From a virus: a stretch of 24,241 bases of DNA. The notes under the pieces were generated by a model. It was not told where the DNA came from. It ran no database searches and saw only the letters and a program-made list of their open reading frames with translations. Positions 1 through 15,783 of the stretch are shown here, piece by piece (within the stretch, counting starts at the first letter, position 1; each line of letters opens with the position of its first letter). The translations under genes and the position numbers were made by a program. The DNA is taken from positions 1 through 24,241 of the IMG/VR virus record IMGVR_UViG_3300028581_001156; one strand, 5' to 3'.

Positions 1-1266
1 TGGATCTCTTTCGCCAGCCGATATTATATTAATTTTTTCAAAGTTATAATATCCGTGTCTATTCTTTTCGTCATTGTATCTATTTAATATAGACTTAAAT
101 TCTGCAATTCTATCACTGCCTACAACCATTGTTACATTTCTATAACCCATATTATATATTTTTGTTGCTAATTCTAATACCATATTTGAAGGCATAACCA
201 TTATATGACTCGCATAGTTTCTAAACATCTTAGTCATATATCTTAATTTATCTGATGGTGATAATGGATTTTTAATTGCGTCTTGTGATCTACTTAAAAA
301 TATTTTATAATCCATACCTTGGCTGGCCACTGTTCTTATAAGTTTCTCGTGTCCTATTGTTGGTGGATTAAATCTACCAAAAGTAAATGCAAAAGATTTA
401 TTAATTGCTTCTGTCTTTATTGAATCTAATTCTGCGTCTGTAATCTCACCATCTTTTATTATATCTTTTAATGCTTTATAGAAAGTTAGATAGTGATATT
501 TTTCTAACATCTTATAAACAACGTTTTTAGGTAATTGATTTTTTCTACCAAATGTTTTTATTTCTTCTGGTGTCATATCAGTAGCAAATGCTGTTGCTCT
601 GTCTTTTAAAACTTCATCACCTATGGCCACTAAATGATTAATACTATCTTCTACTTCAATTACTTTTGCATTTATTAACTCTTGTAAATCTAATATATCG
701 TTAGGGTCTAATTCTTTTAATTCTCTATAGTCTATAAGGTCTCGTTTTAATTCGCCTTGTACTACATCAATTTCTCTTACTTTCTTTTCAAAGTCAGCTG
801 CATAACGTTTTGCATCAAACTTAAATTCTTTTGCTTTTCTTATAAATGTATTGTTCTTAACATCAAATACAGCATCAGCCATTTTATCGTTTGTTTCTTT
901 TACGTTAGGATCTGTAATGATATAATAATTAATAGGATGTTTTGTACCTGGTACTAATGCACCATTAATGTTTCTTAATGACTTGGCTAATTCTTTTCTT
1001 ATAACATCTCTATCTTCTAATGGCACATCAAATAAAACGTTTACATCTAAATCGGCATCATCTCTATATGTTTTTGTAAGTATTGAACCTACTAAACTAT
1101 ATTTTAATACCGGTCTTATATCATTAAATTGTTTAATTTGATTGTTTATAATATCTAACACACCTTGTTTTAATTTTGGATTATCTGTATCGGCATCATC
1201 AAATACACCTTTGGCATATGTTCGTCTAGGTATATCTATTACTGCCTCTTGTATTAATCTAAACAT
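1..1266 (-). CDS. Two-domain nucleotidyltransferase (Pol-beta-like + HxGH cytidylyl/adenylyltransferase-like), C-terminus outside window
   Basis: An open frame runs from an ATG at 1266 through 422 codons to the left edge without a stop, so the gene is partial. Residues about 54-80 read SLVGSILTKTYRDDADLDV, the G-S...D-x-D signature of Pol-beta-type nucleotidyltransferases; the position where a third carboxylate is often found looks like Asn (HPINYYII, about 110-117). After a charged helical middle (about 140-290), residues 295-311 carry FGRFNPPTIGHEKLI, the TxGH form of the HxGH nucleotidyltransferase fold, followed by NPLSPSDKLRYM (about 333-344) and VVGSDR (381-386), as in NMN-adenylyltransferase-like enzymes. 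The substrate cannot be told. The ATG overlaps the end of the kinase gene by 8 nt. The N-terminus MFRLIQE-AVID offers an I-x-E cleavage site like its neighbours' leaders. Fold assignment is fairly sure; reaction is unknown. Confidence 0.8.
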   Translation of the reverse strand, partial: MFRLIQEAVIDIPRRTYAKGVFDDADTDNPKLKQGVLDIINNQIKQFNDIRPVLKYSLVGSILTKTYRDDADLDVNVLFDVPLEDRDVIRKELAKSLRNINGALVPGTKHPINYYIITDPNVKETNDKMADAVFDVKNNTFIRKAKEFKFDAKRYAADFEKKVREIDVVQGELKRDLIDYRELKELDPNDILDLQELINAKVIEVEDSINHLVAIGDEVLKDRATAFATDMTPEEIKTFGRKNQLPKNVVYKMLEKYHYLTFYKALKDIIKDGEITDAELDSIKTEAINKSFAFTFGRFNPPTIGHEKLIRTVASQGMDYKIFLSRSQDAIKNPLSPSDKLRYMTKMFRNYASHIMVMPSNMVLELATKIYNMGYRNVTMVVGSDRIAEFKSILNRYNDEKNRHGYYNFEKINIISAGERDP

Positions 1267-1945
1267 CTTTTCTTCTAGCCATTCTTTCTTTTGCCATCCA
1301 TCTTTTTGCAATATAACTTTTAATAGGCGTTGTTAAAAATCTTCTTACAACTGAATTTACTTTGTTCATTGTTTGTGTTACTAATTCTTGTTCTGATTTA
1401 CTGTTATCTACTACAACAAAGCTTGCTAAACCAAAAAGGTTTTGAAATCTACCTATATTATTTTGAACTGATTGCCAAGAATTTTTAGTAATATATTCTG
1501 GTACAACTCTTTCTCTTTTAGCATTTCTTTCTAATGCAACTTCTAAACTTGTGTTTACAAATACCATATAACAATCGTAACCTAATAATTGTAACGCACT
1601 ATACTGGCGACTTATAATATTGTAATCTCTACCTGTGGCATCTATAACTAAACCTAATCGGCCTTTTACATATAAATCTATTTGGTTATCTACAATGGCC
1701 TTTGCTCTTGTTCTTAATATATCTCTAAAATATTGTTCTTCATCAGGCATAGATAAAGATAGACCTGCTTTTTTTAAACTGTTTTCTAATATAATATCTG
1801 AATTAACTAACTTTAATCCTGTACCTGCAAATACGTTTCTTGCAACAAAAGACTTACCTGAACCTGGCCCGCCTGCAAGAAAGAAAGCCTTAAATATATT
1901 AGGGTCGTAAAGGCCTTCTGAAAGTATTTGTTCGTATGATTTCAC
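1259..1945 (-). CDS. P-loop kinase, zeta-toxin / polynucleotide-kinase-like
   Basis: About 228 residues. A Walker A motif GGPGSGKS lies near residues 25-32, the strand LVIDATG near 99-105 gives a Walker B/acceptor-site acid, and an arginine-rich lid RNAKRERVVP lies near 140-149. This is the layout of zeta-toxin-like and T4 Pnk-like kinases, which phosphorylate nucleotides, nucleotide sugars or nucleic acid ends. The preferred start is a GTG at 1945, which shares one base with the upstream stop codon (TAGTG). It gives the N-terminus MKSYEQILSE-G, very close to the capsid-targeting leader of T4 internal protein III (MKTYQEFIAE-A). A GTG at 1957 is also open but would add four residues inside the previous gene. 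The neighbours (ligase-like and nucleotidyltransferase genes) suggest nucleic acid end chemistry rather than a toxin; no antitoxin gene is visible. Confidence 0.8.
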   Translation of the reverse strand: MKSYEQILSEGLYDPNIFKAFFLAGGPGSGKSFVARNVFAGTGLKLVNSDIILENSLKKAGLSLSMPDEEQYFRDILRTRAKAIVDNQIDLYVKGRLGLVIDATGRDYNIISRQYSALQLLGYDCYMVFVNTSLEVALERNAKRERVVPEYITKNSWQSVQNNIGRFQNLFGLASFVVVDNSKSEQELVTQTMNKVNSVVRRFLTTPIKSYIAKRWMAKERMARRKDV

Positions 1946-2223
1946 TAGCAATTCCACTTTCTTAAAGCTAATGCTTTACGTGTAGGTCTTCCTTTTTCAT
2001 CTTTCATAGGACCTGGATTGCCTGACATACGAGCACAAAACGATTTACGTCTATTGTATGCCTTGCCTCCTTTTTTCAATTCAGATGGTTTTTTTGTAAC
2101 AGGTGCTTTTAGATTACTACCATCTTTGCGATTAAAGTAATCTCTACCCTTTTGTGTTAATCCACCACTCGGACTTTTAAGCCCTTTGGCATCTTCTTTT
2201 ATATATTCTTTAAATGTTTTCAT
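1945..2223 (-). CDS. Small basic phage protein, DUF6321-like
   Basis: A 92-residue, strongly basic protein. It contains SPSGGLTQKGRDYFN (about 18-32), a lysine/proline stretch, then KSFCARMSG (about 60-68) and the C-terminal block RKALALRKWNC. I recall this SPSGGL...KSFCARMSG pattern from a conserved phage family listed as DUF6321; its function is unknown. The first residues MKTFKEYIKE-DAKG match the T4 capsid-targeting leader style and end in an I-x-E site that a gp21-like prohead protease could cut. The ATG directly follows the stop of the ligase-like gene, and its stop overlaps the kinase start, so the genes are translationally coupled. Size, charge and leader would fit an internal head protein; that role is inference. 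Confidence 0.7.
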   Translation of the reverse strand: MKTFKEYIKEDAKGLKSPSGGLTQKGRDYFNRKDGSNLKAPVTKKPSELKKGGKAYNRRKSFCARMSGNPGPMKDEKGRPTRKALALRKWNC

Positions 2224-3444
2224 TTATCCCTTTACCCAATCTTTGGCTATTGTAAAATTTGCACGACTAAACTCTAGCCTATCTACAAGTTTAACGGCAC
2301 CTCTCACTCTATCAACGGCCACATATCCTTCAGGATTTGTTACTCTATATCCATCTGGTGTTCTTATAAAATGACCAATTGATTGTATTTGATTTAATTT
2401 TCTAATAAGAAAATTCTTTGCACGTTGTAGTGAAATCCAACTTGCAATTGTAAAATATAATGCTTGTTTATTTCTATCAATAAAATCTAAACCATTATCT
2501 CTTATTGTTCTATACTTTTTTTTAGTTTCATCTTTAGAAACAGCATCTACTTCTTGTTGTAACATATTTGCATAATACGACCTAAACATATCTATTAATT
2601 CTCTTACTTTGGCAATATCGCCTTGTGTATTTTTTATAAAGTAATTAAAGAAAGATTTAAGTTTATAACCTACTGATAATGGGTCTGTTGAATTGAATTG
2701 ATTTAATAATGGTTCTGCCTTTGATAACGAGCCTTCTGCCATCGCTATAATATTATCAAACTGTGTCATTTCTGCATTATTAAATGTTGCAACGCCTGAA
2801 GCATCTTTATAAGTGGCGTCTGTTACAAACACTGATGATAGTTTAGGAAATCCTCTTAATGAGCCAAAACTGGCCTTTAGATTACTCATTTTACTGCCTG
2901 TGTATAATGTATGAAATACAATACCTAATCTTGCACTGGCAATTCTTTTACCTATTTGACTATTTGTAGCGACTGCATATGTAATTGTGTTTGGTGTAAA
3001 TACATAAAAATCTTGGTCGTCTATTGTAGTAGTTTTAACATCGCCTTTTGTAAACAATAAATCACCTTGTAATATGCCTGTGATACCTAACTTAGATAAC
3101 TCTCTTAAACATACAATGAGTTTATTAGCTAAAACGCCATCGTGGTTTCGCATTATATCACCTGTTGAATAATTAATTTTAGGTGTTACGTTGAATACTG
3201 ATTTTGTACCAACAAAGAATTTGCCATTTTCTGGATTAATGCCACATATAACAGCAGGCGCACCGTCCCATTTAACAGTTACGTTAAGTCTACCACCTAC
3301 GTGGCCTGTTAACATTTTTTTGATTGACTTTAGAAAGTTAACTGCATTACGACCACCTTTTGAACCTTGGTCTATAAGGCTATCTTCTAAATGTTCTAAA
3401 TGGGTGTTTGTACCCTTAGTAACGAATCCTTTAAAACTAAACAT
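2224..3444 (-). CDS. RNA-ligase-like covalent nucleotidyltransferase (DUF6267-like)
   Basis: A 406-residue protein with what look like the ordered motifs of the DNA/RNA ligase and capping-enzyme superfamily: motif I VKWDGAPAV (Lys58-x-Asp60-Gly61, Lys58 being the expected AMP/GMP attachment site), GTKSVF near 79-84, a motif III-like GDLLF at 127-131, motif IIIa-like FYVFTP at 146-151, motif IV EGYVA at 372-376 (the form found in T4 RNA ligase 1) and motif V-like VKLVDR at 384-389. A helical insertion of about 150 residues separates motifs IIIa and IV. I recall related phage proteins under DUF6267, without a proven activity. It is the first gene after the paired promoters at 3502-3530. The N-terminus MFSFKGFVTKG resembles the leaders of its neighbours but has Lys at the cleavage position. 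The ligase assignment rests on motif order and is inference. Confidence 0.65.
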   Translation of the reverse strand: MFSFKGFVTKGTNTHLEHLEDSLIDQGSKGGRNAVNFLKSIKKMLTGHVGGRLNVTVKWDGAPAVICGINPENGKFFVGTKSVFNVTPKINYSTGDIMRNHDGVLANKLIVCLRELSKLGITGILQGDLLFTKGDVKTTTIDDQDFYVFTPNTITYAVATNSQIGKRIASARLGIVFHTLYTGSKMSNLKASFGSLRGFPKLSSVFVTDATYKDASGVATFNNAEMTQFDNIIAMAEGSLSKAEPLLNQFNSTDPLSVGYKLKSFFNYFIKNTQGDIAKVRELIDMFRSYYANMLQQEVDAVSKDETKKKYRTIRDNGLDFIDRNKQALYFTIASWISLQRAKNFLIRKLNQIQSIGHFIRTPDGYRVTNPEGYVAVDRVRGAVKLVDRLEFSRANFTIAKDWVKG

Positions 3445-3501: not shown

Positions 3502-3530
3502 ATTATACTACACTATTTATAAAAAGTCAA
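3502..3530 (-). promoter_or_regulatory. Sigma70-type promoter for the ligase-like/kinase block
   Basis: Read on the minus strand: TTGACT (3530-3525), a 17-bp spacer, TATAAT (3507-3502). Eleven of twelve consensus bases match. The start point would be near 3495, about 50 bp upstream of the ligase-like gene. Confidence 0.75.
3514..3521 (-). promoter_or_regulatory. T4-type late promoter box TATAAATA
   Basis: TATAAATA on the minus strand, the T4 late promoter -10 sequence recognised by the gp55 sigma factor with gp33 and the clamp. It lies inside the spacer of the sigma70-type promoter 3502-3530, so the downstream block may be transcribed both early and late. Phage gp55 itself is not in this window. 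Confidence 0.5.
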
Positions 3531-3537
3531 GTCTTTA

Positions 3538-4968
3538 TTAGCTTGTTTTAACAAAAAATGAAGATACATCAGTATTTGAAGCTCCATATCTAAATAAATC
3601 GGTGGCGAATCCATCTTTCTGTGATTTGTTACCTGACATAAAGGTATCTAAAAAAAGTAAACACATATTTTTTGAAAATATAAAAGATTGACCTTTTGAT
3701 TTACACATTTTAACAAATTCTCCTTCATCTATAGTTGATGTTTTATTTATTTGTAATGTATTATATTTTTTATATAACTTATACATATTTTTCATATCAG
3801 CGCCGGTAGCAGAAGTTTCTCTCCAACCACTCATAATACTATTTTTACCTATTGATTTTTTAAAATGTTTTTCGCAATAATAATTTACATTTCCTCCTCC
3901 TATTTTTCCTCCTGCAGCTGCCGCTCCTTTAATTTCTCCTTGCCAACTAGACGTACTATTAAAAGCTCTAAATTGAACTTCTGCTGTGCCTAACTTAAAA
4001 TACATATCTATTGAACTAAAAAAATCTCCATTTTTACCAAATATAAATCCTGTAAAAGGTATTATGTTATTAATTTTTCTAACCTTGGTATTATATTTTG
4101 TAAGGCTTACTACACCACCTGTTTTTTTTAATGATACGGCTAATAAAACAACGCCTTTAGATTTTAATTCTCCAGCTTTATCTAACACGGTATTATTTAA
4201 TTCTTGCCAATCTCCATTACCTCTTTCTTTTATTTTTTCAAAAGGGTCTACTGTAGGACTTAAAGACGACATCCAAACGTCACCTGCATTCCATTTATCA
4301 TCAGCAAAAGATCCTGGTGCCTGTGGTTGACTTCCAGTTTTTTGAGCTAATTCTATATCTATTTTCTGAGCTCTTTTTTTAGCTTCATAAATTTTTTTTA
4401 GAAAGTTATCCGTTGATCTACCTTGGTGCATATATACTATTCCAGAAAAATTTGACCTATAAAAATCAAAAACTTTATTTGCTGTTTTTATATATGTTTG
4501 ATCATCAATCCAAGAAACTGGTCCTGTTTTTAAAAAAACTTCTAAGCTAATTTTTGCTGTAACATATGCCGCTGCTTTTTTTAAATTTGCATCAGTACAA
4601 TCTTCTGGTTTTAGCTGTTTTTTTATTATATTAAATGCTAGAGAAAAATAATATGCTTGTCCTGATTCAGTTATATCGGTGTTTTCTGATCCACCACCTG
4701 AGCCTCCACCTCCTCCAAAATCAGAATCTTTATATATTTTATTTATTGATATATCTATTAATTTTTTATTACTATTACGATAGAATAATTTTATAGGTGA
4801 AGTTTTTAAATCTACTTTTTCAGCAAAAAACTTTGTGCCTGAACCTGAACCTATATAAAAAGGTTGTTTGTTTTTAATTTTTAAACTGATGATTTCTGTT
4901 CTTTTTTTGCCGGCATAAGGACCTTTTGAAGCTATTTTACTTAACTCTCCGGTAGTTAGCATTGTCAT
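3538..4968 (-). CDS. Large unknown protein with glycine-rich linker
   Basis: 476 residues, family not recognised with confidence. An N-terminal beta-rich segment (about 1-82) is joined by a glycine/serine linker (GGGGGSGGG, about 85-93) to a larger domain. That domain holds KWNAGDVW (about 225-232) and, after a helical stretch, the strand VVLLAVSLKK (about 273-282). A D...S-x-K pair in such a setting recalls degenerate PD-(D/E)XK nucleases, but this is weak. A run GAAAAGGKIGGG lies near 348-359. No signal peptide or membrane span is evident. GCC codons are much rarer than in the neighbouring gp41 gene (about 3 against about 17 by eye), hinting at a different origin. A TATAAATA box sits 6 bp upstream of the ATG, leaving no visible ribosome binding site; expression may be late and nearly leaderless. 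Confidence 0.7.
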   Translation of the reverse strand: MTMLTTGELSKIASKGPYAGKKRTEIISLKIKNKQPFYIGSGSGTKFFAEKVDLKTSPIKLFYRNSNKKLIDISINKIYKDSDFGGGGGSGGGSENTDITESGQAYYFSLAFNIIKKQLKPEDCTDANLKKAAAYVTAKISLEVFLKTGPVSWIDDQTYIKTANKVFDFYRSNFSGIVYMHQGRSTDNFLKKIYEAKKRAQKIDIELAQKTGSQPQAPGSFADDKWNAGDVWMSSLSPTVDPFEKIKERGNGDWQELNNTVLDKAGELKSKGVVLLAVSLKKTGGVVSLTKYNTKVRKINNIIPFTGFIFGKNGDFFSSIDMYFKLGTAEVQFRAFNSTSSWQGEIKGAAAAGGKIGGGNVNYYCEKHFKKSIGKNSIMSGWRETSATGADMKNMYKLYKKYNTLQINKTSTIDEGEFVKMCKSKGQSFIFSKNMCLLFLDTFMSGNKSQKDGFATDLFRYGASNTDVSSFFVKTS

Positions 4969-8520: not shown

Positions 8521-9624
8521 CTAACGGATGATTTGTAGATTATTATTTTTAGTCCAGATTTCAAGTTCACTTCTTATTTTATTCTCCTTTTTTAATGTTT
8601 CATAACGATTGATGGCTTTGTTTCTCCACCACTCTATGATATTGTTTAGTTCAAACCTATCGTAGGTTTTATCTTTAATGATTGTATTTGTTTTACCATT
8701 TACAATTTCTATAAAGTTCTTAATACCATAATTACTTATATAATATCTTTTCTGTTCTGTCAAGTCTTTTGCGTTGTGGATAACTTTGTTAAAATCTTCT
8801 AATTCGGTTTTATAATCTTTTAAAGAACGTTTAATTAAACCTACGATTGCGTTGGTTAGTTTTAATTTTTTACTTGAAGCATCTTCTTTCACTAAATCGC
8901 CGACTATGTTTTCAACGTAGTCTTTTAATTTTTCAAAAGGCAATCCGTGCAACATAGGTATAAAATCACTGTCTGTTAGGCCTTTATATCTTACAAAAGG
9001 TTTCATACCATCATACTGACTTGATGATTTACTATTACCATACAAACTTGTAGTTTCAAATAAACATAAATTCATATCATATTTTTTATTTAATAATTCT
9101 CTTACGTAATGACTACAACAAATGGCCGCTAACAACTTGCCACCTAGATAATTATAACCAAAAGGTTGAGATGGTACTATAACAAACCCCATCATAGCTG
9201 TTTTATTAAAATGACTTAAATTAGGTACACTGCCTAACATCTCATTACGAGGTTTCATATTAATAACTGGCGAACCTAATCTTATAAACCCTACCCATTT
9301 ATTTGTGGTTGTTTCTTTTATTGCTAGTTTCAAAGCTTTACCAGGAATACTTACCATATTACTATGACTTGAAATCATATTAATACAAGTGTCCCAAGTT
9401 TCGTTATCAATTTCTTTTACTTCTAGTTTCATATCTTTAGGCGACATTGTAAAATCAGAAAATAAATCATCATCTAAACTCATACCAGGAAGGCCAGCAG
9501 GAATATTTTGTATAGAGGCAATCTTTTGGTCTCTCATATATTCATCTATACGAGAAAAATTACCAAAATAATTTTTAAATATATCAGCACAATGTAGTGC
9601 TTGTTCTTTAGTTAATGTTTTCAT
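8521..9624 (-). CDS. Conserved phage protein, possibly DUF4338/DruA-like GNAT-related
   Basis: 367 residues. The middle has the order WVGFIRLGSPVINMKPRN (110-127), GFVIVPSQPFGYNYLGGKLLA (146-166) and LCLFETTSLYG...QYDGMKPFVRYKGLT (187-217). This layout resembles DUF4338 proteins (the family of Druantia DruA), where a G-rich strand, a 'LPW..LAS' helix and an 'ETFV...Y.AANW..G.T' block follow in the same order; the similarity is by eye and remote. The C-terminal 140 residues are helical and charged. Its ATG overlaps the MT-A70 stop as ATGA, so the two are translated together, which suggests a role in DNA modification or in handling modified DNA (inference). A promoter-like sequence inside it (8735-8763) may serve speD. 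Confidence 0.7.
   Translation of the reverse strand: MKTLTKEQALHCADIFKNYFGNFSRIDEYMRDQKIASIQNIPAGLPGMSLDDDLFSDFTMSPKDMKLEVKEIDNETWDTCINMISSHSNMVSIPGKALKLAIKETTTNKWVGFIRLGSPVINMKPRNEMLGSVPNLSHFNKTAMMGFVIVPSQPFGYNYLGGKLLAAICCSHYVRELLNKKYDMNLCLFETTSLYGNSKSSSQYDGMKPFVRYKGLTDSDFIPMLHGLPFEKLKDYVENIVGDLVKEDASSKKLKLTNAIVGLIKRSLKDYKTELEDFNKVIHNAKDLTEQKRYYISNYGIKNFIEIVNGKTNTIIKDKTYDRFELNNIIEWWRNKAINRYETLKKENKIRSELEIWTKNNNLQIIR
8735..8763 (-). promoter_or_regulatory. Possible internal sigma70 promoter
   Basis: Minus strand: TTGACA (8763-8758), 17 bp, TATAAG (8740-8735), 11 of 12 matches, but lying inside the 367-residue gene. It could give early speD transcription with a leader of about 280 nt, or be a chance match in AT-rich coding DNA. 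Confidence 0.3.
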
Positions 9625-10353: not shown

Positions 10354-12839
10354 TGAAAGAAAGACTCCAGATTTGCTTGTTTCTCTTGCTGCCAACCAAT
10401 GGCCTGTAACACAAATCTCATAGGGTCTAAGAAAGTCTTTTCAAATTGTGTTTCATAATCTATGTATTGTTGTAGTTTAAACTCTTTAGGTAAAGTAGTA
10501 ATATAACTAATCACATCAAACTTAAATGGATTTGCCTCTACCAGTTTAAGAAATTTAATCTTATCGCCTTCTTGTATAAAAGGATATTTGTTTGATAATT
10601 TGAATTGTTTGATTTGATGATTATATATTAGAGCGCCTTTCACGTGTATTGGCGTGCCTTTAATAAAGATATTATTACTGTCTTTATATTTCTTCATATT
10701 ATTACAAGACCTAGGAAAAGATATTTCTTCAGCTGACATATTAAAAAACTCTTTCTTAAAGTCAGCAATAAACTTCTGTAATGTATCTTCATCTTTATTC
10801 ATTATTATTTCTATGGCCTTTTTAATTCTACCTCTACATACTTTAGGTGTTGATGACTTAACAGCTTCGATACCCATAATCTTTAGTTTAGTTTCAGAAA
10901 GTCTTACGCCTTCTTCATCTAATACATTTAACATATATCTTTTCTTTGCAACCCATATACCTTTGTTGGCGATTACTTCTCGTTTCATTACCATACAGTT
11001 TTTAAATGCGTTTGTATAATCTGCAAGTTCTTCAAAACATTTATTTAAAAATGGTTCTATTCTACTGTTAACTACTTTGTCTATAAAGTTACATATCTGG
11101 TCATCTGTTTTATCCTTACAAGTATGTTCTACGAGTTTATCAAGTGTAACATAAATTGAATCTGTATCTGAAGCCACAATATAATCTACTTTGTCGTGTG
11201 TCTTTAATATGTTGTTAAGATAACCATTTACCTTTTCCTCTATAAAACGAATGATAAACTGGCCTGCCGTAGTGATTGCACTGGCCTGTCTTACATCATA
11301 GTATCTAAAGTATTGATTACCAACTGCACCATAAGCGGAGTTTAAAGCAATCTTTCTTGCCCACTGAATATTATGACAACGAGATATTTCTTTTATCAAT
11401 TCAGGATTTTTAGTTCGTTCATATTCTTTCTTTGCTTTTAACATTCTGTCTTTGAAAACCACACGCTCGTTATACATTGTTTCCATCATTTCAGGTAAAA
11501 AACCTTGACTGTCTGTTTTAAACAATGCACCATTAGGTGTAATACAAGCACCATCAGTTTTCAGATAGGCAAGAGGTGTGGATTGATTTAACATTTTATT
11601 CACTGAAATACCAGATGGTTTTTCACCTATGATTTTTTCTGGCGATATATTATATTGTATAATGATATGCGGATATAGTGAGTTAATATCAAATGAAACA
11701 ATCCACTTGTGCATACCAAGTTGTGGCTCTTTTACATAAGCGCCTTCATACTTTTCATTCTTTACATTATCTTCTCTCGGTGGTACACAAATGTTTTTCT
11801 TTAATAAATGATTTGCTATCAGTGTGTCCCATACTCGCACTTGTGAAAAGATGTCGCCATAATTTACTTTAGATTCATAGGCAACAGTTAATGATAAATC
11901 AATCAAGCCAAGTTTATCTTCTAAAGCATCAACAATTTCCACGTCTTGTATATTGTAATCAATAAATGATTGAAAGTCTTTTGTATACCAATCTTTAAAT
12001 GTATCGTGTTTCATTTCATCTTTACCACGACCAAGTTCTAGTTCACCAATAAAATCTAGTTTATAACTCTCTTGTCGTGTAGGTATAAACCATTGATATA
12101 GATCTAAGTAATCTAAATTCGTAATACCTTTTATATCATAAACTGTTTGAGGTCGGCCTCTTACTAGAATAACCTCTCTTTGAAATAAACCCCAAGGAGA
12201 TATTTTATTTGCAACCTTATCACCAGCAATTAATATAATTCTATTCATTAAATAAGGTAAGTCAAAGAATTTAGTATTCCAGCCTGTGATAACATCAGGA
12301 TAGTTTTTCATCCAGAAGTTCATAAACTCAAACATTAATTGTTTTTCGTCTTTACATTTAACGTAAGTAATATCTGGTCTGTCTGTTTTATAATCACCAA
12401 CACCCCAAGTAATGATTTGTTTATTGTTTTGATTTTTAACTGTGATACAAAGTATTTCTTCTATAGGATTTTCTACATCAGGAAAACCATTTTCGCAGGC
12501 CGTTTCTATATCTAATGTAAATATTTTTATAAACTTTTTATCCCAATCTATATCTTCAGGATGTTTTTTATTAATGTATTGATAATGGTATCTCTCTAAG
12601 CCATAGATAGGTGAATTTTCGGTTGCTACCTCTCGTCTAAATTTACGAGCATCATCAATTGTTTTAAATGTAATAGGTTTAAGAAACTGGCCTTGTAGAG
12701 TTTTAAATTTTGTTTGTTGTTGCGTTAATGAATAAAGTGTAGGGTCAAAATCTATTTTTTCTTTATATTCTTGGCCTTCGTGTACACCTCTTACAAGAAG
12801 TTTACCTTTAAATTCAATAACTGATTTATAGAAATTCAC
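10350..12839 (-). CDS. 43: Family B DNA polymerase (T4 gp43)
   Basis: 829 residues, slightly shorter than T4 gp43 (898). Exonuclease motifs: TLDIET (Asp110, Glu112), GWNTKFFD (Asn188, Asp193) and YNIQD (Tyr295, Asp299). Polymerase motifs: A, DINSLYP (Asp384-Pro390); B, RKIALNSAYG (about 495-504); C, SDTDS (558-561 region) and a later KKRY. The C-terminus QANLESFFQ looks like a sliding-clamp-binding peptide. Proofreading and polymerase residues are all present, so the enzyme should be active. The gene starts inside the end of the Mom-like gene (14-nt overlap) and is uninterrupted by introns or inteins. Confidence is very high. Confidence 0.98.
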   Translation of the reverse strand: MNFYKSVIEFKGKLLVRGVHEGQEYKEKIDFDPTLYSLTQQQTKFKTLQGQFLKPITFKTIDDARKFRREVATENSPIYGLERYHYQYINKKHPEDIDWDKKFIKIFTLDIETACENGFPDVENPIEEILCITVKNQNNKQIITWGVGDYKTDRPDITYVKCKDEKQLMFEFMNFWMKNYPDVITGWNTKFFDLPYLMNRIILIAGDKVANKISPWGLFQREVILVRGRPQTVYDIKGITNLDYLDLYQWFIPTRQESYKLDFIGELELGRGKDEMKHDTFKDWYTKDFQSFIDYNIQDVEIVDALEDKLGLIDLSLTVAYESKVNYGDIFSQVRVWDTLIANHLLKKNICVPPREDNVKNEKYEGAYVKEPQLGMHKWIVSFDINSLYPHIIIQYNISPEKIIGEKPSGISVNKMLNQSTPLAYLKTDGACITPNGALFKTDSQGFLPEMMETMYNERVVFKDRMLKAKKEYERTKNPELIKEISRCHNIQWARKIALNSAYGAVGNQYFRYYDVRQASAITTAGQFIIRFIEEKVNGYLNNILKTHDKVDYIVASDTDSIYVTLDKLVEHTCKDKTDDQICNFIDKVVNSRIEPFLNKCFEELADYTNAFKNCMVMKREVIANKGIWVAKKRYMLNVLDEEGVRLSETKLKIMGIEAVKSSTPKVCRGRIKKAIEIIMNKDEDTLQKFIADFKKEFFNMSAEEISFPRSCNNMKKYKDSNNIFIKGTPIHVKGALIYNHQIKQFKLSNKYPFIQEGDKIKFLKLVEANPFKFDVISYITTLPKEFKLQQYIDYETQFEKTFLDPMRFVLQAIGWQQEKQANLESFFQ

Positions 12840-13608
12840 TTAAATTACCTTCACTTTTATACATATTAACGTTCTTCTTATTATATATCATTTCTTTAGA
12901 TAAGTCAAATGGTATCTTATTCGTTTCTTTATATTCTGTTTCACCAGGCTTTTTTATGTACCAAATTAGGTCTTTATCTTTAGGATAATTCAACGACCAT
13001 TGTACTGTTGATTTTTTTAAAAGCTTTCGGTCTTTTTTAGTCATAGGGTAAATATATCTAAATTGTTTGCCTTTTACACGACTTAATTTTAATTCTATTA
13101 ACTGTTTTGGATTTGGTCTCATTCCATATTTTCTGTTTTTAGTATTAGGTATATGGCCTTGCATTGTTCTTGGATGTACTTTTTCTCCTTGTTCGGTGAC
13201 ATAAGTATCTGTTATAGAAAATCCACCATATAAAAAATTAGCAGATTGATATACATAACCTGGTTTACCAACTAGACCATCAGCCCAAGTAAAAAGATAT
13301 TTAATGTTTGTATTTTCTTTTAACCATTTAATAGATAGAGAAAGTAATTGTGATTCTGAATTTTTTGGCATTTTATCATCCATACACATCTTACCTATCT
13401 CAAAATAATCTTTTGTGTCTAATTGTGGAAATAACTTTTGTATAGTGTGTTTAGGTCTTGTGCCCCAACCAAAGGTAATTACACCTATTAAGTCGTCTTG
13501 TATAAAACAACCAAGATAATGTTTTGTAAGTTTAGGCATTACTGCTGAATAATGCCTTGATGCTACAAACTCAGCCGCCGTGTATTTGTTTAATGGTTTT
13601 AATATCAT
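12826..13608 (-). CDS. Mom-like adenine modification protein (GNAT-related)
   Basis: 260 residues. The Mom family of phage Mu converts adenine in DNA to N6-carbamoylmethyladenine and protects the DNA from host restriction; the fold is related to GNAT acyltransferases. Family features seen here: RHYS at 18-21, the strand LIGVITFG (40-47), the block EIGKMCMDDKMPKNSESQLL (70-89), FTWADG...GYVYQSANFLYGG (106-129) and HPRT after it. The start codon shares one base with the ferredoxin stop (TAATG) and the 3' end overlaps gp43 by 14 nt, so ferredoxin, Mom-like enzyme and polymerase are made together. The glycinamide-like product of Mu Mom makes the tRNA-Gly-like RNA at 19377-19450 a possible partner (speculative). 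Confidence 0.8.
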   Translation of the reverse strand: MILKPLNKYTAAEFVASRHYSAVMPKLTKHYLGCFIQDDLIGVITFGWGTRPKHTIQKLFPQLDTKDYFEIGKMCMDDKMPKNSESQLLSLSIKWLKENTNIKYLFTWADGLVGKPGYVYQSANFLYGGFSITDTYVTEQGEKVHPRTMQGHIPNTKNRKYGMRPNPKQLIELKLSRVKGKQFRYIYPMTKKDRKLLKKSTVQWSLNYPKDKDLIWYIKKPGETEYKETNKIPFDLSKEMIYNKKNVNMYKSEGNLSEFL

Positions 13609-13952
13609 TATAAAATCTTATCATTATTATCCTTTAAGTGTACTATTAAACCATCTAGTTCTTTTGTTAAAAAGATTTGACAACCTAATCTACTCACTCC
13701 TTCTTTAAAACCTTTTTCGTATTCTAATAATTCTAATTCTGCCATATTTTCGTTTATCTTTGGCAGTTTGTCAATCCATTTTTCATCAACATAGATATGG
13801 CAAGTGGCACAAGCACAACAGCCATAACAATCAGCAGGTATTTCAGGTATAGAAACTTGACTAAATCGTGTTGCCGCTTCCATTACAGTACGGCCAATAG
13901 GAACATCAACTCTAATCTTAGAGCCGTTTCTTACAAAGTATATAGTTATCAT
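13608..13952 (-). CDS. [2Fe-2S] ferredoxin, adrenodoxin/Fdx type
   Basis: 114 residues from the ATG at 13952 (one-base overlap with the previous stop). An electron carrier with a plant/adrenodoxin-like beta-grasp fold. Numbered with one extra upstream codon, cluster ligands are Cys43-x5-Cys49-x2-Cys52 in ADCYGCCACATCHIYVD and Cys92 in RLGCQIF; Cys46 and Cys47 are additional. The ENMAELELLEYEKGF segment before the last Cys matches the ISC-type ferredoxin pattern. Marine phage ferredoxins are known, usually linked to host redox metabolism. Here the gene is fused into an operon directly before the Mom-like gene, so it could feed electrons to a DNA-modifying step; this is inference. Confidence 0.9.
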   Translation of the reverse strand: MITIYFVRNGSKIRVDVPIGRTVMEAATRFSQVSIPEIPADCYGCCACATCHIYVDEKWIDKLPKINENMAELELLEYEKGFKEGVSRLGCQIFLTKELDGLIVHLKDNNDKIL

Positions 13953-14263
13953 CAATCAATTATAAGTTTAGGTTTTTTAAATTGTACGATACCTGTTCCT
14001 AAATGCTGATGATATGAATTTCCTATTTCTGTTTTTGGATTGACCTCTGCTACGACATTGTTTCTTTTAATTGAAACAGTATCTTCTTCAGCATAAGGCA
14101 TATATGGGGTAAGTGCTAATGAAACAGGCCCACCTGGTTTTGATTGCATTGGTACAATCACAAATGGTTGTTTTATGTCTACCACTTCTGTATTACTGGT
14201 ATCTTGTTTAATACCGATAACATCTTCACCTGTTGTTAATCTAAATATTTTCAAATCGCTCAT
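13952..14263 (-). CDS. Small beta-rich conserved phage protein (Sm-like barrel suspected)
   Basis: 103 residues, starting MSDLKIFRLTTGEDVIGIK, a strand-turn-strand opening of the kind seen in Sm/LSm-like small barrels, followed by VVDIKQPFVIVPM and VSLALTPYMPY. I recall similar 'KIFRLTTGE' proteins in marine T4-like phages without a known function. First gene after the perfect promoter at 14281-14309 and one base into the ferredoxin gene. An Sm-like fold would fit RNA or protein binding, but that is a guess from the strand pattern. Confidence 0.7.
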   Translation of the reverse strand: MSDLKIFRLTTGEDVIGIKQDTSNTEVVDIKQPFVIVPMQSKPGGPVSLALTPYMPYAEEDTVSIKRNNVVAEVNPKTEIGNSYHQHLGTGIVQFKKPKLIID

Positions 14264-14280
14264 AATATATTCTTTGTTTT

Positions 14281-14309
14281 ATTATACTACTTTTTATCTT
14301 TTTTGTCAA
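14281..14309 (-). promoter_or_regulatory. Perfect sigma70 promoter for the ferredoxin-Mom-polymerase operon
   Basis: Minus strand: TTGACA (14309-14304), 17 bp, TATAAT (14286-14281), 12 of 12 matches. The -35 box lies within the last codons of the RimK-RimB gene, the -10 box in the short gap. Expected start near 14274, about 10 nt from the ATG of the 103-residue gene, so the leader is very short. Confidence 0.9.
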
Positions 14310-15783
14310 TAGGTTTGATACGTCTGCTCAATACAAACTCTCGGTTTGGATTTACAGAAGCATTAAATCTTCTTATCATATCTCTATTTAACAACACATC
14401 ATTACGTGATCTAATTCTTTCATCTAAGCCAAATTCTATATCTTTATAAACAAATCCATTAAATGTTACATCTATTTTAACAACTGGCCTTTCTTCGCCA
14501 TCAACATCATCTGTATTTGCTCTAAAAATTTTTACTTTACGAACCAGTTTACTTGTATGTTTTTTACCATCATATTTCCAAGAAACTTTACCATCTTTAA
14601 TTTCTATTTCTTCAGCGTGTAATGCACTCACTTCAGCACCATTACCTGTATCTAATTTTGCTCTAATTAAACCAACGCCACTTAATTCTAATGTTTCAAT
14701 ATAACCAACCTCTATAATTGATTGACGGTCCCAATTGTCCCTATTGTTTATGTAATCAATTATATTATCTACTAACTGTTTGCCTTTTATTGGGCCTGTT
14801 GTATTAGGTGTGTCAGCATAATCTTCATAATGATATCCTTCGTAATCAGCTCCTGTTCCTGGTGAACCATTGACTTCTAATACACAAATTTTATCTTTGT
14901 ATATAATGTGGTCTACACCTACGATATAAGCCTTTGATGCTCTGGCCGTTCTTAATACTATTTCTATTTCTTCATCTGATAATTTATAAGGTTCTGCAAC
15001 AGCACCTCTATGTACGTTAGACCTAAATTCACCTTTTGCCTTTACTCTTTTTGTACAAGCAAATATTTTATTATCAACTACAAAAGTTCTTATATCAAAA
15101 TCTGTAGGCATATATTCTTGTACTAATAATTCGGCATCGTGTTTAAATAATGCCTGCACTACTGATATTAATGAGTCGTAACTGTCTACCTTTACAACAC
15201 CAATACCTTGTGTGCCTGTTAATGTTTTAACTACAACTGGAAATTTGCCACCTATAATCTTTAATGCTGTATCTATATTTTTTTCATTTGATATAAAGGC
15301 TGTTTTAGGTGTAGGTATATTAAACTTTTCAAATAACAAAGCAGAAGTTAATTTATTATCACAAGTTAACATTGATGACCTTGTGTTTAACATAAAAGAA
15401 CCAGAATTTTGAAAGGCAGATATTAAAGAAAGGCCTGCTTCATCTTCAATTGCACCTGCTCGTGTAATAACAACTGTGTTTTTACCTATGAAAGTATGTT
15501 CACCATCTTCACCATCATAGTTATAAATGGTCAATGAATTTTTTTCTTCGTCTTTGTCTGTAATGATTGAGTGTTTAGTATTGATTATAAAACAAGGTAT
15601 TTTTCTTTTCTTACAAGACCTTTGTATAAAACTTACTGTAATTTCTTTTTTAGTCTTACGATTACCTGTTTTTTGTTTTCTTACTTTAGGCGAAGATTTG
15701 GTAATGACAACAACTGTAATTGGTTCGCTGTCTTTAGGTTTTTTAGCCTCGTTTATAAAATCTCTAAACTTTGGAACTTGCAT
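14287..15783 (-). CDS. RimK-like ATP-grasp ligase fused to RimB-like retropepsin-fold protease domain
   Basis: 498 residues. The first part (about 20-330) is an ATP-grasp ligase: FPVVVKTLTGTQGIGVVKV (about 176-194), LLVQEYMPTDFDIRTFVV (about 220-237), FRSNVHRGA and the metal-binding end VLEVNGSPG. RimK adds glutamates to the C-terminus of ribosomal protein S6. The C-terminal part (about 355-490) has AKLDTGNGAEVSALHA, the DTG active site of RimB / 'ATP-dependent zinc protease' proteins, which trim RimK-made tails. Ligase and trimming protease in one chain suggests controlled tailing. The first residues MQVPKFRDFINE-AKK end in an I-x-E site like T4 capsid-targeting leaders. The gene starts right after RegA. 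The substrate here is unknown; S6 is the first guess. Confidence 0.88.
   Translation of the reverse strand: MQVPKFRDFINEAKKPKDSEPITVVVITKSSPKVRKQKTGNRKTKKEITVSFIQRSCKKRKIPCFIINTKHSIITDKDEEKNSLTIYNYDGEDGEHTFIGKNTVVITRAGAIEDEAGLSLISAFQNSGSFMLNTRSSMLTCDNKLTSALLFEKFNIPTPKTAFISNEKNIDTALKIIGGKFPVVVKTLTGTQGIGVVKVDSYDSLISVVQALFKHDAELLVQEYMPTDFDIRTFVVDNKIFACTKRVKAKGEFRSNVHRGAVAEPYKLSDEEIEIVLRTARASKAYIVGVDHIIYKDKICVLEVNGSPGTGADYEGYHYEDYADTPNTTGPIKGKQLVDNIIDYINNRDNWDRQSIIEVGYIETLELSGVGLIRAKLDTGNGAEVSALHAEEIEIKDGKVSWKYDGKKHTSKLVRKVKIFRANTDDVDGEERPVVKIDVTFNGFVYKDIEFGLDERIRSRNDVLLNRDMIRRFNASVNPNREFVLSRRIKPIDKKDKK

Follow-up and report, generated by a model that had tools for sequence, protein, structure and literature searches.

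Gene Organization of the Locus

The window analysed here is the record IMGVR_UViG_3300028581_001156 of a marine T4-like virus, taken over its whole length of 24,241 bases. Its minus strand carries a T4-like replication block (gp45, gp44, gp62, regA, gp43, uvsX, and gp41). The genes 3' of gp41 are, in order, an 85-aa gene, a phrog_1462 gene, a DUF6267 gene, a DUF6321 gene, a P-loop kinase gene, and a gene joining a putative Pol-beta nucleotidyltransferase domain to an HxGH nucleotidylyltransferase domain. The last four genes, which abut or overlap, are the subject of this report, and several of their products may be loaded into the phage head by an N-terminal capsid-targeting sequence (CTS) of the T4 type. 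The features are as follows:

2224-3444, minus strand: DUF6267 gene, 406 aa, putative KxDG ligase-fold-like protein (PF19782, E 1e-116)
1945-2223, minus strand: DUF6321 gene encoding 92 aa that start with MKTFKEYIKED, a leader matching the T4 IPIII register exactly
1259-1945, minus strand: P-loop kinase gene of AAA_33/zeta/PNK-like type; counted from GTG 1945 the product has 228 aa, and its leader, MKSYEQILSEG, matches the T4 IPIII register exactly
1-1266, minus strand: predicted Pol-beta nucleotidyltransferase plus HxGH nucleotidylyltransferase gene, incomplete at the window end, with a shorter CTS-like leader, MFRLIQEAV
3514-3521, minus strand: TATAAATA, which lies 5' of DUF6267 as a T4-type late promoter core, at a position conserved among relatives
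3538-4968, minus strand: phrog_1462 gene, 476 aa
4974-4981, minus strand: TATAAATA immediately upstream of the phrog_1462 gene, a tentative late promoter

The junctions are TAA/ATG at 2224/2223, TAGTG at 1945, and an ATG at 1266 within the end of the kinase gene; the GTG at 1945 is the most likely start codon of the kinase and gives the leader listed above. A sequence-only reading had placed motifs for a P-loop kinase, a KxDG/EGYVA protein, and a Pol-beta/HxGH fusion in consecutive coupled genes at 1259-3444. All three motif sets were present and the coupling held, but a fourth gene, DUF6321, lies unmentioned between DUF6267 and the kinase. The interval encloses DUF6267 and the kinase, whereas the Pol-beta/HxGH gene falls almost wholly outside it.

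Conservation of the Gene Block

Conservation was assessed in 80 IMG/VR loci, which are not independent because they are the closest relatives. DUF6267 is followed downstream by 4 kb or more of sequence in 38 of these loci; HxGH was found there in 36, Pol-beta in 25, and the kinase in 22, and neither the kinase nor Pol-beta ever occurred without HxGH. The DUF6267-kinase-HxGH cassette is real and not a chance arrangement, and the co-conservation that the sequence-only reading had expected of its gene trio was borne out. Pelagibacter phage HTVC008M has gp41 followed by DUF6267, kinase, and HxGH and lacks the Pol-beta domain; in S-CAM1 and S-RIM8, DUF6267 and HxGH occur but the kinase does not, and in Melnitz the kinase is located elsewhere, beside a HAD gene. 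Organism counts in named phages were similar for DUF6267 (465 records) and the HxGH domain (513), and the kinase was rare (12). In other phages the linkage was weaker: P-SSM2 and S-H34 have DUF6267 at a separate place, and HxGH lay within three genes of DUF6267 in just 32 of 66 cyanophage-type loci.

One relative (L029) encodes kinase, Pol-beta, and HxGH in a single 913-aa open reading frame (ORF), and two others (L060 and L070) carry HxGH-RimK fusions. No DUF6267-HxGH fusion was found in 160 IMG/VR loci. Two apparent cases outside that set were given no weight: the S-PM2 ORF consists of the second half of DUF6267 plus HxGH, with the first half as a separate ORF, and the metaG-MbCM1 fusion, in which a CTS is retained internally, could stem from misassembly or a frameshift. 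In relatives the block also includes a HAD protein similar to 5'-3' deoxyribonucleotidases and a gene of adenylate-kinase-like type. The adenylate-kinase-like gene, a second P-loop gene (PF00406, E 3e-40), often lies between DUF6267 and the kinase (L016:7783-8346, L033:1261-1863, and similar), with CTS-like leaders such as MKSFKDYIFEA and MKRFKSYIKEE.

Capsid-Targeting-Like Leaders and Late Promoter

The first ten residues of T4 IPIII are sufficient for packaging; residues 4 and 7 of the T4 CTS target the protein, and gp21 cleaves after (L/I)xE, the step for which residues 8 and 10 serve (PMC9026906). The N-terminus of both IPII and IPIII is MKTYQEFIAEA. The window kinase and DUF6321 follow the T4 rule at positions 4 and 7, with L or I at 8 and E at 10. 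Relatives carry leaders of this kind on DUF6267 (MYSFKQYLNEA), Pol-beta (MKQFKDYIKES), HxGH (MKNFTSFITEA), adenylate-kinase-like (MKSFKDYIFEA), and HAD (MKKFTQYLKES) proteins and on the product of an upstream gene (MKTFKQHLTEA). Exact-register leaders were present on 58 of 460 distinct N-termini from DUF6267 onward versus 8 of 408 upstream (P = 7e-10), fractions that are approximate because the start caller was our own and that concern a pattern picked after the leaders had been seen, the register itself being that of T4. Because related sequences inflate this comparison, the stronger point is the spread of the pattern: eight or more unrelated families carry it, and replication proteins of the same loci rarely do.

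The late promoter is NATAAATA in S-PM2 and TATAAATA in T4 (PMC2984593). The T4 form was found within 110 nt upstream of 40 of 82 DUF6267 genes versus 0 of 196 gp41, g85, uvsX, kinase, and Pol-beta genes. In the window alone its count was not above chance (4 seen, 7.3 expected), so that the copy at 3514-3521 means little by itself and only its conserved position counts.

Two results on LxE sites were set aside. Internal LxE depletion in the kinase, considered as a sign of protease exposure (z -3.5 over all sequences), vanished after dereplication, and LxE enrichment in the downstream H372/M251 genes (z 4.2) was obtained without correction for relatedness and was not used. Separately, low-complexity (L/I)xE-rich proteins resembling T4 core proteins are encoded 3' of the HxGH gene in some relatives (L002:12582-14279, L003:8851-10995, and L102:15062-16624), and one homologue region (SSCSM1_92) carries a virion-protein label. 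In Agrobacterium phage Atu_ph07 (L005:4254-6590), the kinase domain stands behind an N-terminal domain that by eye is ADP-ribosyltransferase-like, and the N-terminus of this protein, MKWNDLNEA, may be a packaging leader in a jumbo phage. A RimK-like ATP-grasp plus Zn_protease protein of the window (14287-15783, minus strand) begins with MQVPKFRDFINEA, which resembles a shifted capsid-targeting leader.

Homologues in Published Virion Proteomes

Homologues of the HxGH and phrog_1462 proteins have been detected in cyanophage virions by published mass spectrometry. The S-SM1 virion proteome includes the cytidylyltransferase T4-GC190 (PMC3037559). This protein is SSM1_190; its N-terminus is MKKFSAFLNEA, and its gene adjoins the DUF6267 gene SSM1_189. 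An NMNAT-like protein was found in S-SCSM1 virions (PMC9602691), and its N-terminus is MKSFLQFLKEA. The S-SCSM1 record labels the neighbours SSCSM1_89, _90, _92, and _93 as virion proteins; SSCSM1_90 is a phrog_1462 protein, a homologue of window 3538-4968, and no CTS-like leader was found on phrog_1462 members. In S-CREM2, the cytidylyltransferase and its two neighbours were detected in virions by proteome, and DNA polymerase and helicase are absent from the published virion list (PMC10665884). The HxGH ORF of S-PM2 has no CTS and was not detected in virions, a weak negative because that study also missed known structural proteins. The authors of the virion studies call the HxGH protein an NMNAT and weighed NAD regulation and possible carry-over. 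Our literature search found no paper that names DUF6267 or links these genes to a capsid-targeting signal, and the only one found to join "capsid targeting" and "cyanophage" was a T4 review (PMC9026906); nor did a virion proteome turn up for a phage with kinase and DUF6321 leaders like those of the window.

Because of the tagged leaders, the late promoter, and the virion detection, head packaging of the HxGH homologues is likely. Judging by the same N-terminal signal, the kinase and DUF6321 are probably packaged as well. The suggestion of the sequence-only reading that the set might be injected thus gains from CTS-like leaders on unrelated enzymes, a late promoter, and published detection of homologues in virions.

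Predicted Activities of the Encoded Proteins

Among 63 DUF6267 sequences, K58-x-D60-G61, D128, E372-G373-x-V375, and K385 were invariant; in the window these include K58-W-D-G and E372-G-Y-V-A, confirming the lysine that had been singled out from the sequence. We take the order of these residues to be that of motifs I, III, IV, and V of covalent nucleotidyltransferases. An AlphaFold model built from an alignment of the window and IMG/VR sequences had a mean pLDDT of 76.6, with much of 61-200 near 90, a helical stretch at about 223-351, and a C-terminal motif region below 60. When Foldseek candidates were realigned with VIA-align, RNA/DNA ligases dominated (Naegleria RNA ligase 7.3, trypanosome REL1 6.9, T4 Rnl1 6.5, and human Lig1 about 6), although the Z values of 5.5-7.3 are not decisive because they lie below 8. 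In a viral-library Foldseek search, the first match outside the family was an Atu_ph07 RNA ligase (E 4.9e-4), followed by weaker RNA ligases. The carbonic anhydrase and BabA rows of the PDB Foldseek search were judged meaningless, and a PDB profile search gave weak, implausible matches only. The model suggests that DUF6267 likely has a ligase-like fold that is closest, outside its own family, to RNA/DNA ligases. The ligase-superfamily assignment of the sequence-only reading agrees with this motif order and predicted fold, but not at the level of a T4 Rnl1 sequence match; hhalign probability against Rnl1 and Rnl2 was below 2%, and DUF6267 is therefore not filed in either family. We regard DUF6267 as a putative, divergent KxDG ligase-fold enzyme.

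The kinase matched AAA_33 (E 1e-14) and Zeta_toxin (1.5e-9) in Pfam, and its P-loop (GGPGSGKS in the window) was invariant. In profile searches the best match was zeta toxin (3.8e-5), followed by Pnkp kinase entries (1.3e-3); these are listed as "Metallophosphoesterase" and are presumably the kinase domain of Clostridium thermocellum Pnkp. The kinase also aligned colinearly with T4 Pnk (64-79% probability). The comparison with T4 Pnk that had been suggested gave this colinear alignment, next to the match to a bacterial Pnkp kinase domain, but zeta toxin scores better.

The Pol-beta (PF01909, E 1.4e-4; GS...DADLD) and HxGH (PF01467, E 3e-4; GRFNPPTIGH) domains occupy one ORF. The N-terminal domain of 1-1266 has invariant G60-S61...D72-D74, and NTP_transf_2 and Polbeta profiles matched it in 24 of 24 members (E up to 0.1, best 3.6e-7); this GS...DxD motif and the profile matches identify it as a putative Pol-beta nucleotidyltransferase. 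A PDB profile search with this domain alone returned nothing credible, T4 NrdC.11 did not match as a relative, and no RlaP-named family was among the Pfam matches. The C-terminal domain is clearly an HxGH nucleotidylyltransferase by motif and Rossmann-like fold, with Z 10-12 to PPAT, GCT, and NadM and a GMSASKMR motif in relatives. The comparison with NMN adenylyltransferases that had been suggested accordingly gave an NMNAT/PPAT-type domain, with NadM among the fold matches; capping, also raised, found no support.

Interpretation and Alternatives

As the likeliest explanation, we tentatively propose that the block encodes a late-expressed, head-packaged kit, delivered together with the genome, that would heal and seal nucleic-acid ends, most plausibly those of host-cut RNA (tRNA). 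Several cassette proteins would be loaded into the head via the T4-type CTS, and the prohead protease would trim their leaders after (L/I)xE. The trimmed proteins would then be delivered with the genome and work in the cell ahead of any newly made viral protein, with the kinase as the enzyme that readies 5' ends, the Pol-beta/HxGH protein as the one that adds or activates nucleotides, and DUF6267 as the sealer of breaks, of which host-made cuts in RNA (tRNA) are the most plausible. Cleavage, injection, ligase activity, and an RNA substrate are inferred here. In its strictest form, a CTS-tagged, virion-packaged RNA (tRNA) repair machine of ocean T4-like phages, built on DUF6267 as a new ligase family and acting on host-cut RNA before phage gene expression, the proposal is doubtful.

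T4 Pnk and RNA ligase 1 are made after infection and, to our knowledge, are not packaged. The block resembles them in having a colinear P-loop kinase and a KxDG ligase-like protein in a T4-like phage, whereas DUF6267 lacks a sequence match to Rnl1 and the cassette has additional Pol-beta and HxGH domains. T4 IPI-III and Alt share the ten-residue leader (aromatic residues at 4 and 7, L/I at 8, E at 10), late expression, packaging, and injection (PMC9026906); their mature parts, however, are restriction inhibitors and an ADP-ribosyltransferase, whereas those of the window are predicted nucleic-acid or nucleotide enzymes whose packaging is itself predicted. Phage RNA-repair sets that bring together an ATP-dependent ligase, PNK, HAD phosphatase, and RlaP Pol-beta nucleotidyltransferase are described in PMC7824862. 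The window set would likewise fit end healing and sealing with its ligase, PNK, and Pol-beta nucleotidyltransferase candidates, but it has no RlaP-named match, and the available part of that source does not describe virion delivery. Polyvalent proteins (PMC5512222) are likewise injected sets of dissimilar enzyme domains, zeta-like kinases and Pol-beta nucleotidyltransferases among them; the window proteins differ in that most are separate proteins with a tag each, their phage is T4-like, and one of them is ligase-like.

Several results weigh against this proposal. The window DUF6267 leader, MFSFKGFVTK, keeps F4 and F7 but has K10 instead of the cleavage Glu, for which reason this protein is not filed as CTS-bearing (E10 was present in 19 of 43 distinct DUF6267 relatives with leaders). 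Cyanophage DUF6267 proteins showed no leader, and the late promoter was found at 0 of 79 cyanophage-type DUF6267 genes. HTVC008M has degenerate leaders and none in exact register. The CTS and promoter counts come from phylogenetically related sequences and so are not independent, and our literature search found no report of DUF6267 in virions. As for the activity, the DUF6267 model had no PDB Foldseek match at E <0.001, VIA-align left its fold at indecisive Z values, no sequence match to T4 Rnl1, Rnl2, or DNA ligase was found, and the HAD protein resembles deoxyribonucleotidases, not PNK phosphatases. Whether DUF6267 is packaged is uncertain; this appears to be clade-dependent, and the window copy may ride with its partners or stay unpackaged. 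That none of the proteins is packaged, so that they are ordinary late or intracellular enzymes with coincidental leaders and carry-over in virions, is improbable. Carry-over was mentioned by the virion-study authors, and the leaderless cyanophage DUF6267 proteins and HTVC008M fit this explanation, but it does not sit well with a ten-residue pattern on so many unrelated families and so rarely on replication proteins of the same loci, with the promoter position before DUF6267, or with repeated detection of the HxGH protein (S-SM1, S-SCSM1, and S-CREM2, the last with a list lacking DNA polymerase and helicase).

A packaged kit could serve other chemistry. If the HxGH protein made NAD in the manner of NMNAT or NadR, with the kinases working on nucleosides or nucleotides and phosphates being removed by the HAD protein, the block would be a NAD/nucleotide kit that serves, at entry, to offset NAD depletion or nucleotide signals of the host; this explanation is rather unlikely. 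The fold matches of HxGH to PPAT, GCT, and NadM, its naming as NMNAT in the virion studies, and the adenylate-kinase-like and deoxyribonucleotidase-like genes of relatives are in keeping with it. NadR is a fusion of a HIGH domain and a P-loop kinase (PMC9503650), and the window shares the HxGH fold with NadR/NadM and has a kinase adjoining it, or fused in L029. The window kinase, however, belongs to another family, matching zeta/PNK/PSTK and not the NadR kinase, and the ligase-like and Pol-beta partners would be left unexplained. A packaged DNA-end kit that repairs nicked or UV-damaged phage DNA on its arrival is quite improbable, even though PNK, Pol-beta, and ligase are the domain set of single-strand break repair, DNA ligases are among the VIA-align matches of DUF6267, and the genes sit among DNA replication genes. 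RNA ligases ranked above DNA ligases in VIA-align, by small Z differences, and were the first viral matches, and an OB-fold domain was not evident in the DUF6267 model. The kinase may also act on other targets.

If the proposed packaged end-repair kit is correct, two T4 strategies, head-packaged injection and RNA end repair, would be merged, and repair would take place at entry and not after expression. Roles could also be proposed for DUF6267, for DUF6321, and for the virion-associated "cytidylyltransferase" that hundreds of genomes of marine cyanophages and pelagiphages encode, and the CTS leader would provide a simple sequence rule for finding further injected enzymes in abundant marine T4-like phages.

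Other Genes in the Window

Within the replication block, a DruA/DUF4338-like protein (phrog_19197) is encoded at 8521-9624 on the minus strand (Pfam E 5e-8, PADLOC E 1.7e-7). A Mom-family DNA modification protein is encoded at 12826-13608 on the minus strand (PF25680, E 2.5e-52), and its gene adjoins that of a Fer2 ferredoxin at 13608-13955.

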